Assembly: GCA_027064085.1 (NCBI GenBank) | Contig: JAMOQH010000132.1 | Coordinates: forward strand, 1 to 8,245 | Direction of reading: 5' to 3' | Length of the DNA: 8,245 nucleotides | Origin: a bacterium | GTDB lineage: Bacteria > UBP6 > JAFGXH01 | Shown: in pieces, positions 2,321 through 7,007 of the stretch | Layout: each line of letters begins with the position of its first letter | Numbering within the stretch: the first letter of the stretch is position 1 | Notes under the pieces: generated by a model | What the model saw: only the letters and a program-made list of their open reading frames with translations | The model's database searches: none | What the model was told of the DNA's origin: nothing | Position numbers and translations under genes: made by a program

Positions 2321-2341
2321 TAATCAAAAATGATTAAAATA
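2316..2341 (+). other. 11-bp hairpin in the lipoprotein mRNA leader
   Basis: The arms TATTTTAATCA (2316-2326) and TGATTAAAATA (2331-2341) are perfectly complementary around an AAAA loop. They lie within the predicted 68-nt leader, ending about 18 nt before the AGGAG. It shares its left arm with the preceding palindrome, so the two structures exclude each other in RNA. No U-run follows directly, so it is not a typical terminator. It may stabilise the mRNA or be part of an operator. Confidence 0.55.
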
Positions 2342-2371
2342 GAGAAAATAAACAATTTTAGGAGAAGTTTT

Positions 2372-4408
2372 ATGAAATTAATTATTATTTTATTAGCAGT
2401 ATTGCTCTTTATATCATGCAGTGATGACAATAATAGTAATCATGACAATAATAAACCAAAGGAAAAAAGTTACTCTGTAACAATAACTCCCGACCTAACC
2501 CAAATTTTACCAAACCAAATAACTAAATTTGCCCTTGTAAAAACACCAAACTGGCTTAGAGCAAAATTTTTAGATAAATTAAATTCACTTAAAGCATTAG
2601 AAGAAGATAAATACCCTACAAACCACCCTGCTCCTCCAGAAAATGTAACTAATCCTAAGAATTATTTTTCTAATCTTATCTTAGAAATTCAAGATAAAGA
2701 AATTATAGATGAAATTGTTTATCAAATTGTAATTACTCCTAATAATGAGTTAACTAGTTTTAATTTTAGAATAGAGCTATTTATAGAAAACGCTAAATCT
2801 ATTTATCAAATTGCAGATGAGTTAAAATATGTTAATATTTTTGAGGGCGAAAATTATACAACTCTTAAATATAAAATAGATGATGGAACAGGTAACATTA
2901 TAGATTATGAGCTACCGTATTATTACTATTATAATTATGTTCTTCCACTTGTAATTGATGATAATTCATCTTTTTATGTTACCGCAAATACAGGGGATTT
3001 TCATGAAAAAGGAGAAACTTCCCATGAAGGAAAGATGTGGAGAGATTACATTTATAATCATAAAAAAGAAGGAAGACCGTCTTTAAAAGAGTTACTTGCA
3101 GACAAAGAAGTTTTATGGAGACATAAATCTAATTTTTGGGGCCATTATGACACCGAAAGATGGACAAATGGCTATAAAGATGCTGATTTTAATTTGGATA
3201 ATCAAGTTGAAAAAGTAGATGCTTTTTTAGCTGAAGCATATTCCAATCAAGGAGCAATTGGTAGTGTTATAGAATGGATGATGAAAAATATGATTTTTGG
3301 AGCAAAAGGAAAACGACCTGTTGAACCAGCAGAAATTTTTACTTGGGGCTGGGGTAACTGTGGAGAATGGGGAGATTTAACAACAGCTTCTATGAGAACT
3401 GCGTTAATTCCAACAACAGTTGTTTCAACTTCCATAGATGACCATGTTTGGAATGAATTTTTTGATGGTCAGTGGCATAATATTGAGCCATACCACCCTT
3501 TTATTGACTATCAGTATTACGATAAAGACATTGCAAGCGAACATGAAGATATCAACGGTTTTGGTTGGCAGGCCCACATGACTACAAGGGCTAGAGCCGA
3601 TGGATTAATGGAAGATGTTATTGATAGATATTCTGGTTACGGAACATTAAATTTAACAGTAAAAGATAAAAATGGAAAGCCATTAGATGATTCTATTATT
3701 TTAATATATGGACAAGGAGACTTAAGAGAAGAAGGCCAATTAAGTTTAGGCTTAGTAACTTATACTGATATTTTTGGAAATGCAACTATAAATTTAGGAG
3801 ACAATAGAGCTTTTTGGGGAATTGTTTACACTCCATTTGGTTCCTACCCTATTGATGATAACGAAGTTTATAAAATTATGGATAATGTAGAAATAGATAA
3901 TAATTACACATGGGATATTGTAATTGATGGTGAAAAAGAAGTTTTTACACCTAAAACAACGGAGATTTCTTCAAAAGAAAATAAACTTAAATTAAATTTT
4001 AATTTAAATAATTTAACTTCTTATTCTAAGGGCTATAATATCTGGAAAGGAGATAATTTTTTAATAAAAAATAAAATTTTAGTAAATAATTTATCTATTA
4101 TGGTTTTAAATGAAGAGAATTATCAAAAATTTAAAAATAATGAAAATCCAGAAACAGAAACCAAAGAAGAAATAAAAGCCCTTTATTCTTTTTCAGACAC
4201 TAACCAAGGAGGATTTGATTTACCAATAACAAAAGATAAATTATATTTTGTTATTGCAAATAAAAATAATCTAAGAACATCTTTTTGGGCTAATTTAGAA
4301 GTTTCATTTAATACAAATAATCAAGAAATAAAAAAATACAATTCTGAAGTTTATATTAGTCCTAATAAATCATTTATTATTGAATTTACCACAGAAGAAC
4401 TAAATTAA
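2372..4408 (+). CDS. Lipoprotein with transglutaminase-like domain
   Basis: 678 residues. The upstream in-frame ATG at 2330 lies inside a leader hairpin and is rejected. The ATG at 2372 has AGGAG at 2360-2364 (7-nt spacing) and begins a lipoprotein signal, MKLIIILLAVLLFISC, with the lipid-modified Cys at 16 and a polar SDDNN linker after it. Residues 17 to about 290 match nothing I recognise. About 300-380 is a transglutaminase-like (papain-fold) core: Cys330 in WGNCGEWG, His358 in DDHVWNEFF, and W-H-N-I-E-P, where Glu372 stands in the place usually held by the catalytic Asp. Asp379 lies nearby. About 413-510 looks like a carboxypeptidase-regulatory or Ig-type beta domain (LTVKDKNGKPL). The rest is probably beta-rich. 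Likely tethered to a membrane and facing outward. It could act as a cysteine protease or amidase, a cross-linker, or an inactive binder. Confidence 0.87.
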   Translation: MKLIIILLAVLLFISCSDDNNSNHDNNKPKEKSYSVTITPDLTQILPNQITKFALVKTPNWLRAKFLDKLNSLKALEEDKYPTNHPAPPENVTNPKNYFSNLILEIQDKEIIDEIVYQIVITPNNELTSFNFRIELFIENAKSIYQIADELKYVNIFEGENYTTLKYKIDDGTGNIIDYELPYYYYYNYVLPLVIDDNSSFYVTANTGDFHEKGETSHEGKMWRDYIYNHKKEGRPSLKELLADKEVLWRHKSNFWGHYDTERWTNGYKDADFNLDNQVEKVDAFLAEAYSNQGAIGSVIEWMMKNMIFGAKGKRPVEPAEIFTWGWGNCGEWGDLTTASMRTALIPTTVVSTSIDDHVWNEFFDGQWHNIEPYHPFIDYQYYDKDIASEHEDINGFGWQAHMTTRARADGLMEDVIDRYSGYGTLNLTVKDKNGKPLDDSIILIYGQGDLREEGQLSLGLVTYTDIFGNATINLGDNRAFWGIVYTPFGSYPIDDNEVYKIMDNVEIDNNYTWDIVIDGEKEVFTPKTTEISSKENKLKLNFNLNNLTSYSKGYNIWKGDNFLIKNKILVNNLSIMVLNEENYQKFKNNENPETETKEEIKALYSFSDTNQGGFDLPITKDKLYFVIANKNNLRTSFWANLEVSFNTNNQEIKKYNSEVYISPNKSFIIEFTTEELN

Positions 4409-4472: not shown

Positions 4473-6488
4473 TTAAAAATCAAATAATTTTTCTAAATTA
4501 TTCATTACTGCACCTTTAACCTCTTCTAAAGGCACATCACTTTTACCATCGGTATAATCTATCCATTTTATTATTTCAGGTGGAATTTCATCTAAAAACC
4601 TTGATAACTCATAATGAAAAGCATTACCGTTCATGATTTTATTTTCTATCGCAGTCATTATAAGCTCTTTTTTAGCCCTTGTAATTGCAACATAACACAA
4701 TCTTCTCTCTTCTTCTAAGTCTGTTCTTTTTTTAGTATCTAAAGACCTTTGATGGGGTAATATCCCCTCGTTAAAACCTAATAAAAATACATAAGGAAAC
4801 TCTAAACCTTTTGACGCATGAATAGAAAGTAAAGTTACTTCATCAACCTCTTCTTCATTTTTAGCACTATCAGGCTCAAGTGCAAATTTTATTAAATATT
4901 CTTCAAGAGTAATATTAGCTTTTGTAATATACTTTACCATTCCTTCAATAAATAAAATTAAATTCCTTTTTTTAGCATTTGCAACTTTATCAGACTTGCT
5001 TTCATTATTTAGTTGCTCTACAAATTTAATTTCATCTACAAAATTATATAATTCTTTTTCACTTACTATATTATTTAAAATTTTATCATATTTTTTTATT
5101 AAATCTAAGAAAGTTTTTATTCCATCTTGAGTTTTTTTAGCAATTCCTAATTTATAAGCATCTTTTAAAGCATTAAAAAATGTTTTTTTATTATTATGAG
5201 CATATTCTGATATTTTTTGTATAGTAGTTGAACCTATTCCTCTTGTTGGATAATTGATAATTCTTTTTAAATGTATTTCATCATTTGGAAAAACAAGCAT
5301 AATTAAATAACTCATAAAATCTTTTATCTCTTTACGATTATAAAAATCCAAACTTCCAACTACTTTATATGGAATTTCTCTTTCTTTTAGCTTTAATTCA
5401 ACCACTCTTGATTGATGATTACTTCTATACATAATTGCAATATCTTTTGGTTTGATATCTTTTCTTAAATAAGATTGTATCTTTTCTGCAACTTTATTTG
5501 CTTCATGTTCTGGGTCTTCAAGTAAATATAATTTTATCTTTTCACCCTTTCCTAAGTTAGAAAACAAAGTTTTTTTATTTCTTACTGAGTTTTTAGCAAT
5601 AACAGAATTTGCTGCATGAATTATATTTTCTGTTGAACGATAATTTTGCTGTAGTTTTACTTCTTTTGCATTTTTATATTGAGTAGCAAACTGTAAAATA
5701 TTACCAACATTTGCCCCCCTAAAACCATAAATAGATTGATCATCATCTCCAACAACACAAATATTTTGATTATCATTAATAATATGATTAATAAACTGAA
5801 ATTGTATATCATTAGTATCCTGATATTCATCTATCATGATATAATTAAACCTTTTTTGGTATTTCTTTTTGATATTTTCAAAATTTTCAAAAATCAAAAC
5901 AGGCTTTAATAATAAGTCAGAAAAATCTACTGCTCCAAATATTCTCATATACTCTTCATAGTGTTCATATACTTTTTGAGCCAACATCATTTCTTCTGTT
6001 ATATTTTCTGTTGGAAAAGTTTGTGGAGTTATTTTATTAGATTTAGCTTCTAAAATTATATATTGAATTCGCCTTACAATATAAGCTTCAACTTTATCTA
6101 TTTTATACCTTTCTTTTAAAATTGTTTTAATAACTCTTTCGATATCACTATCTGCATATATTACAAAGTTTTTCTGTATTCCCAACTTTAAGCCATCTTC
6201 CCTTAATATCCTAACTCCAAGAGCATGAAAAGTAGAAACAGTTAGTTTTTTCACTGTTTCATTGCCTAAAAGTTCAGATAATCTTTCACGCATTTCTCTA
6301 GCTGCTTTATTAGTAAAAGTAACAGCTAATATTTTATTTGGATATATACCATTGTTAATCATATGAGCAATTCTGTAAGTAATAACTCTCGTTTTACCAC
6401 TTCCTGCACCTGCTAAAACTAAGACAGGACCTTTTATAGTTTCAACAGCCTCTCTCTGTGACTTGTTTAACGATGATAAATTTACCAT
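4473..6488 (-). CDS. Rep/PcrA/UvrD-type superfamily 1A DNA helicase
   Basis: 671 residues: an ATP-driven 3'-to-5' single-strand DNA translocase and helicase of replication restart and repair. The motif set is complete. Q motif Gln11; Walker A GAGSGKT at 27-33 with Lys32; motif Ia TFTNKAAREM; motif II DEYQD at 220-224; motif III VGDDDQSIYGFRGA; motif IV QQNYRSTENI; motif V SIHASKGLEFPYV; motif VI YVAITRAKKE with Arg604. The length equals E. coli Rep (about 673) and is shorter than typical PcrA or UvrD, whose extended C-terminal tail is missing here. Rep-like is therefore the best label, though the paralogues are hard to separate by eye. GGAG lies 5 nt before the ATG. It is transcribed alone, divergent from the cold-shock gene and convergent with the lipoprotein gene. 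Confidence 0.95.
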   Translation of the reverse strand: MVNLSSLNKSQREAVETIKGPVLVLAGAGSGKTRVITYRIAHMINNGIYPNKILAVTFTNKAAREMRERLSELLGNETVKKLTVSTFHALGVRILREDGLKLGIQKNFVIYADSDIERVIKTILKERYKIDKVEAYIVRRIQYIILEAKSNKITPQTFPTENITEEMMLAQKVYEHYEEYMRIFGAVDFSDLLLKPVLIFENFENIKKKYQKRFNYIMIDEYQDTNDIQFQFINHIINDNQNICVVGDDDQSIYGFRGANVGNILQFATQYKNAKEVKLQQNYRSTENIIHAANSVIAKNSVRNKKTLFSNLGKGEKIKLYLLEDPEHEANKVAEKIQSYLRKDIKPKDIAIMYRSNHQSRVVELKLKEREIPYKVVGSLDFYNRKEIKDFMSYLIMLVFPNDEIHLKRIINYPTRGIGSTTIQKISEYAHNNKKTFFNALKDAYKLGIAKKTQDGIKTFLDLIKKYDKILNNIVSEKELYNFVDEIKFVEQLNNESKSDKVANAKKRNLILFIEGMVKYITKANITLEEYLIKFALEPDSAKNEEEVDEVTLLSIHASKGLEFPYVFLLGFNEGILPHQRSLDTKKRTDLEEERRLCYVAITRAKKELIMTAIENKIMNGNAFHYELSRFLDEIPPEIIKWIDYTDGKSDVPLEEVKGAVMNNLEKLFDF

Positions 6489-6665: not shown

Positions 6666-6694
6666 TTGACAATTCGTGATTTTAGTAATACTAT
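6666..6694 (+). promoter_or_regulatory. Cold-shock gene promoter with UP-like A/T tracts
   Basis: A perfect -35 TTGACA (6666-6671) is followed by a 17-bp spacer and TACTAT (6689-6694, four of six -10 bases). The roughly 60 bp upstream are nearly pure A and T in short tracts, as in UP elements of strong promoters. Transcription would start near 6701 and produce a leader of about 112 nt before the cold-shock ATG. Confidence 0.7.
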
Positions 6695-6723
6695 GTCACA
6701 TCTGTTGTAATTTAGCAATAGAA

Positions 6724-6791
6724 GCCTAAATAGATTTTAAGAAACTCTATTTTGAGACGGTGGACTCATAGGCGTAATATTATTACCCACC
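6724..6791 (+). ncRNA. Structured 5' leader of the cold-shock mRNA: three-way junction with pseudoknot
   Basis: All pairings are read directly from the sequence. P1 is GCCUA (6724-6728) with UAGGC (6769-6773). It encloses P2, AAUAGA (6729-6734) with UCUAUU (6746-6751), and P3, UGAG (6753-6756) with CUCA (6765-6768). Only U6752 is unpaired at the junction. P4, GUAAU (6774-6778) with AUUAC (6782-6786), follows at once. GGUGG in the P3 loop (6759-6763) is complementary to CCACC (6787-6791), directly after P4, forming a 5-bp pseudoknot. It ends 11 nt before the AAGAAGG ribosome-binding region. I do not recognise a known riboswitch class. A temperature sensor, a ligand-binding leader or a processed small RNA are all possible. 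The folding is by hand, without energies. Confidence 0.6.
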
Positions 6792-6812
6792 ATAATATTT
6801 TAAGAAGGTAAA

Positions 6813-7007
6813 ATGAGTAAAGGTACAGTAAAGTGGTTCAATGATGTTAAAGGTTTTGGTTTTATTACTCCAGAAGACGGAGGAAAAGATCTTTTCGTTC
6901 ATTCTTCAGAAGTAAGAAGTGGATCACTAAGAGATGGTCAAGAAGTTGAATATGAAGTAGGTCAAGGACAAAAAGGTCCTTGTGCCAATAATGTAGTTCC
7001 TGCTTAA
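6813..7007 (+). CDS. Cold-shock domain protein, CspA family
   Basis: 64 residues, the full length of a single cold-shock domain. This five-stranded OB-fold binds single-stranded RNA and DNA and, in characterised members, melts mRNA secondary structure. The N-terminus [20 protein letters not shown] carries the conserved WFN and RNP1 (KGFGFIT, about residues 14-20); RNP2 is DLFVHSS (about 27-33). The C-terminal part has the usual acidic stretch and ends ANNVVPA. AAGG at 6805-6808 lies 4 nt before the ATG. The gene has its own strong promoter and a long structured leader, as is common for cold-inducible family members; cold induction here is inference. Many genomes hold several paralogues, so no letter is assigned. 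Confidence 0.96.
6963..6982 (+). other. Hairpin inside the 3' end of the cold-shock coding region
   Basis: CAAGGAC (6963-6969) and GTCCTTG (6976-6982) are exact reverse complements with a 6-nt AAAAAG loop. They lie within the codons for Gln-Gly-Gln-Lys-Gly-Pro, ending 22 bases before the stop codon. With four G-C pairs out of seven it is the most stable small hairpin in the 3' part of this transcript. No U-run follows, so it is not a classical terminator. Confidence 0.6.

Follow-up and report, generated by a model that had tools for sequence, protein, structure and literature searches.

A conserved element, probably an H-type pseudoknot, in the leaders of one subfamily of cold-shock protein mRNAs

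The window, i.e., the whole 8,245-nucleotide stretch of DNA analysed here, contains a cold-shock (csp) gene whose upstream region had been annotated, from the sequence alone, as an unrecognised compact RNA fold. Is this fold more than a fortuitous set of pairings, does it belong to a catalogued family, and what might it do for the csp mRNA? The first-pass annotation placed it just upstream of the ribosome-binding site of the csp gene, and the Shine-Dalgarno (SD) sequence and the start codon are both found downstream of it (Table 1). From the position of the predicted promoter, the transcript probably starts near 6701, which would place the fold within a leader some 112 nt long. An alternative fold of the region 6680-6830 that uses GUAAUACUAUG was rejected because this segment is the -10 region of the predicted promoter and precedes the putative transcript start. 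The contig is native to its genome, since its proS gene is 80-82% identical to that of same-family genomes.

Table 1. Coordinates of the csp leader features and of the csp gene in the window.
Feature	Position	Strand	Basis or remark
Predicted sigma-70-type promoter, TTGACA-17-TACTAT	6666..6694	+	Consensus scan, 10/12 matches
5' terminal hairpin P0, absent from the first-pass annotation	6701..6722	+	MFE; no conserved counterpart seen
P1, outer half of S1, GCCTA/TAGGC	6724-6728 / 6769-6773	+	Sequence, MFE
P2 hairpin, AATAGA/TCTATT, insert in the 5' strand of S1	6729-6734 / 6746-6751	+	Sequence, MFE
P2 hairpin, whole extent	6729..6751	+	None like P2 seen in homologues
Single junction base, T	6752	+	Sequence
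P3, inner half of S1, TGAG/CTCA	6753-6756 / 6765-6768	+	Aligned with homologues
P3 hairpin with loop ACGGTGGA	6753..6768	+	Covariation at each of the 11 S1 pairs in the family
S2 5' strand, loop GGTGG (family GGTGA)	6759..6763	+	GGTG near-invariant in 68 sequences
Linker L3, P4 of the first-pass annotation (GTAAT/ATTAC, 6774-6778/6782-6786)	6774..6786	+	A/U-rich in homologues
S2 3' strand, CCACC (family TCACC)	6787..6791	+	Compensating G-C replaces A-U
Shine-Dalgarno AAGAAGG, outside the pseudoknot	6802..6808	+	Sequence
csp gene, 64-aa cold-shock domain protein	6813..7007	+	Pfam CSD, E 3.1e-25

Elsewhere in the window, a perfect pentanucleotide array, (GCTGT)x12, was visible at the contig end (13-73); an open frame reads it as repeats of the peptide LCCAV. 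The ORF at 400-2193 is Cys-rich and matches Dickkopf_N weakly, and the one at 2330-4408 combines a transglutaminase core domain with a lipoprotein-like start. On the minus strand, a sub-threshold match to the Rfam entry n00280 (4644-4744, 44.8 bits against a gathering score of 65.2) is located inside a uvrD-type helicase gene and probably reflects coding conservation.

The five helices of the first-pass annotation and their single junction base were all present in the sequence as described. It had further been argued that so economical a fold is unlikely in random AT-rich DNA. The nested folding energy does not bear this out, with z values of -0.90 (6715-6800), -1.88 (6701-6791), -0.92 and -0.99: the nested fold is no stabler than shuffled sequence, and the single-sequence energy carries no claim. 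The exact five-helix topology appeared in none of 3000 dinucleotide shuffles of the leader, a test framed post hoc, when the fold was already known. P3 and the pseudoknot are the part that clearly exceeds chance, as judged by their conservation in other genomes.

When the leader was compared as DNA with relatives, chance matches alone came back. Relatives of the Csp protein in public genomes were mainly from marine Gammaproteobacteria, and many of their csp leaders displayed a hairpin with the loop GGUGA(A), followed downstream by (U)UCACC. The window loop ACGGTGGA and CCACC constitute the same element, as do ACGGTGAA and TTCACC in a leader from Delongbacteria (L074). The family is organised into a stem S1, a loop L1, a second helix S2 formed by the loop GGUGR and YCACC, and an A/U-rich linker (51% U, 35% A in the homologues). 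The geometry fits an H-type pseudoknot, with an L1 of 2 nt, whose fixed length is partly imposed by the alignment, over an S2 of 5-6 bp, no L2, and a linker of 8-14 nt. The spacing from the loop to the S2 3' strand was 20-25 nt in 64 of 66 sequences (21 nt in the window, counted in the alignment), and S2 ended 16-22 nt before the start codon (21 nt in the window).

This layout changes the reading of the helices in the window. P1 and P3 together, with 9 bp, probably correspond to the S1 of the homologues, which reaches 11 bp; for P1, the sequence, the MFE prediction and the stem length are in line with this assignment. Judged by the aligned leaders, P2 is a local insertion on the 5' side of S1 displayed by the window only. 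P4 is not part of the conserved fold: it sits in the A/U-rich linker, where a 5-bp hairpin was seen in just five homologues and no consistent hairpin emerged. From the geometry, a complete P4, with S2 and P1 stacked, would leave no free linker to span S1. The first-pass annotation was right in recognising a structured csp leader RNA, but its conserved part is a probable H-type pseudoknot and not a three-way junction with P4.

Several leaders had peculiarities of their own. In L061 (Microbulbifer, 1438-1503) the GGTGAA hairpin was kept without CACC, and in L073 (1448-1494) the 3' part was kept without the hairpin; both are apparently decayed copies. In L041 (1488-1503) and similar gammaproteobacterial leaders, the true ATGAGTAAAGG immediately follows a segment resembling ATGAGTAAA; the start-like stretch is thereby duplicated, with a short overlapping frame. 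A Balneolaceae csp leader (L066, approximately 1420-1475) has a hairpin loop GTAATA and a downstream TATTAC, perhaps the same topology made with another sequence, or a chance occurrence.

The pairing was examined in two alignments. In the first, which MAFFT produced with no structural model as input, both strands and the start codon fell into register; 89.5% of the cells paired, compared with 35-49% when the partners were slid, and two-sided changes were present in 12 of 17 pairs overall (10 of 11 in S1). The second alignment, of 68 sequences, was fitted to S1 and not to S2. All 11 S1 pairs showed two-sided changes, and 147 cells carried changes on both sides, compared with 45.5 in shuffles; none of 500 shuffles attained 147. 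The covariation of S2 rests on few changes because its core pairs, GGUG/CACC, are nearly invariant in the 68 sequences: two-sided changes affected three of six pairs, once each (G-C to A-U in L158, A-U to G-C in the window, and A-U to U-A in L060). The homologues display conservation and compensatory changes, the opposite of the outcome that the first-pass annotation had named as counting against the fold.

These data also bear on the possibility that the element acts as DNA. The two halves form an inverted repeat, GGTGAA-N20-25-TTCACC, which a transcription factor could read as an operator. The spacing varies without helical phasing, S1 covaries as RNA and the window element is downstream of the predicted transcription start, which makes this explanation very improbable.

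A covariance model (R1) was built from 17 leaders with the window left out. The window leader was the top match of R1 in its own 3.65-Mb genome, with 25.1 bits and an E-value of 0.19 for the genome (0.00043 when searched within the window), and the match fell exactly at a csp start codon. The genome E-value alone is weak; the rank and the position together make a convincing case. On the opposite side, the window's score with a model made without it was the lowest but one of 33 aligned. In a scan of 386 genomes sampled across the domain, csp leaders were the only matches below E 0.001, and the believable ones came from the window, from two Delongbacteria and from one more genome, which is a lower bound. 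The model matched nothing in the regions of nine csp genes from E. coli, of which cspD was taken from strain E2863 and the others from MG1655. A chance pairing in AT-rich DNA, peculiar to the window, would be compatible with nested z values of just -0.9 to -1.9; for P3 and the pseudoknot it is contradicted by the homologues and by the hold-out model, and we consider it extremely improbable.

The element was found in marine Gammaproteobacteria, Delongbacteria, a few other phyla and the lineage of the window; Neptuniibacter and Cycloclasticus are among its carriers. Carriers amounted to at least 15 of 369 sampled genomes of Gammaproteobacteria, at least 31 of 341 in one order of this class, 8 of 13 genomes in the phylum Delongbacteria, and at least 2 of 335 in one class of Verrucomicrobia; scans of more than 40 genomes were run with strict filters, so these counts are lower bounds. 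A csp start codon adjoined 67 of the 68 matches, the exception (L197) being a second, weak match from one of the Delongbacteria genomes. In a protein tree, every motif-bearing Csp fell into one clade with a support of 99/99, which includes the window's Csp. The motif was present in 66 of the 87 members of the clade and in none of the 43 rows outside. It is dispensable, since 21 of the 87 csp genes of the clade do without it. The window's Csp was placed close to Delongbacteria and to two csp genes from its own phylum without the motif; the finer branching is unsure because the tree rests on few columns. The leaders of the nearest csp genes in the phylum (L033 and L036) and of the second csp gene of the same genome (L037) showed no such motif. 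Some non-carriers of the clade (L038, L040, L044 and L047) seemingly share another small hairpin, GCAGAnnnTTGC-like, upstream of csp, together with a AATTAATT-like stretch, possibly another leader type.

The element had been proposed as possibly undescribed, and no catalogued family reached its gathering score here. In a scan with Rfam 15, the window leader matched RF01766 (cspA) alone, at 18.5 bits where the gathering score is 78, and the match ran into the coding region. At 27 homologous loci RF01766 scored 18.7-59.2 bits, always under the gathering score, and no other family covered the motif. No description of a csp-leader pseudoknot was found in the open-access literature that was searched. 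These comparisons support the view that the structured RNA of these csp leaders has so far gone undescribed.

We propose, with a probability of roughly 0.7, that the conserved leader element is an H-type pseudoknot with a cis-regulatory role in one csp mRNA subfamily. Comparative sequence analysis establishes the existence of the element, its conservation and covariation, its fixed geometry and its near-exclusive association with csp. In the proposed mechanism, S1 (P1 and P3 in the window, with P2 inserted) would present a loop with the near-invariant GGUG(A/G), which would pair with (U/C)CACC across the A/U-rich linker, ending 16-22 nt upstream of the start codon. Acting in the mRNA, the pseudoknot likely targets translation initiation, since its end lies immediately 5' of the stretch that a 30S subunit would cover and the SD is left free; the position upstream of the SD and the csp link also point to this level of control.

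How the pseudoknot would act is a matter of weaker conjecture. It may be the translation-permissive conformer, stabilised in the cold, and may tie up both strands that otherwise pair with the ribosome-binding region. With ViennaRNA, which cannot form pseudoknots, withdrawing both S2 strands was predicted to open the ribosome-binding site further in 40-48 of 66 homologues and to leave its openness unchanged in the window. The computed gain of S2 from 37 to 10 °C was about 3 kcal/mol, as for any helix. On these two calculations, a cold-favoured permissive conformer is a first guess that we hold weakly. With pseudoknots disallowed, the predicted partner of CCACC in the window was the csp coding region; a conserved switch between UCACC and the csp coding region was rejected, being predicted in the window yet in few homologues. 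Binding of Csp to the U-rich linker could provide feedback, which is plausible by analogy because E. coli CspA mostly contacts single-stranded regions and, in the cold, stimulates translation of the mRNA that encodes it (PMC9947658).

It is also conceivable that the element mainly shields the mRNA from decay and affects translation indirectly. An mRNA can gain stability from structure at its 5' end. In E. coli, the cspA switch influences not only translation but also the stability of the mRNA (PMC4166951). The fixed distance of 16-22 nt to the start codon points instead to the ribosome, and we regard protection from decay as the main role as improbable.

The invariance of GGUG/CACC goes beyond what pairing needs and suggests a sequence-specific partner. 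UCACC occurs within the 3' end of 16S rRNA (anti-SD), which is suggested as the most intriguing candidate partner. The GGUGA loop might be a second, SD-like standby site and UCACC an imitation of the 16S 3' end, the pseudoknot masking the docking until it is opened. Such mimicry would account for the near-invariance of GGUG/CACC while S1 varies freely, and the pairing of GGUGA with the anti-SD was computed at -6.9 kcal/mol at 37 °C compared with -3.8 for AAGAAGG of the window. The GGUGG of the window, however, pairs with the anti-SD over four bases only, and tertiary contacts or a protein site could also explain the invariance. We regard mimicry as improbable, though somewhat less so than a main role in decay. 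A slightly bolder extension, to be taken as speculative, is a patchy but broad RNA class in which the csp mRNA carries an internal SD/anti-SD copy (GGUGA/UCACC) as a pseudoknot immediately 5' of the start site, ribosome docking competing with the mimic under tuning by temperature or Csp.

What is known of cold-shock mRNA control comes largely from E. coli cspA and from a few thermoswitches of Gram-positive bacteria. To return to the cis-regulatory pseudoknot, an element of about 75 nt kept across phyla in the leaders of one Csp subfamily would add a second csp control element, of much smaller size. Base-swap mutants offer a direct test of how it folds and what it does, and the covariance model allows its annotation in other genomes.

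In its topology, the element resembles regulatory leaders such as the preQ1 and SAM-II riboswitches, H-type folds made of S1, a short L1, S2 and a linker. It differs from them in that none of their Rfam families matched, no ligand is suggested, and the gene context is csp only. The RF01766 cspA thermoregulator corresponds to the E. coli cspA mRNA (Giuliodori et al. 2010, as cited in PMC4166951 and PMC9947658), in whose 37 °C form the leader pairs with the coding region and the SD and AUG are hidden (PMC9947658). The two elements have in common a structured csp mRNA leader and a probable translational control, and are distinguished by the sub-gathering scores, by RF01766 matches running into the coding region, and by the absence of the new motif at the nine E. 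coli csp genes. Thermoswitches of csp genes are also described for Listeria cspA and Staphylococcus cspB and cspC (PMC8155936). These are likewise csp leaders, of about 100 nt in Listeria, and are described as responding to temperature. According to the same description, the hairpin of the Listeria switch hides or exposes the SD, whereas the SD of the present family is located outside the conserved fold, which sets the two apart.
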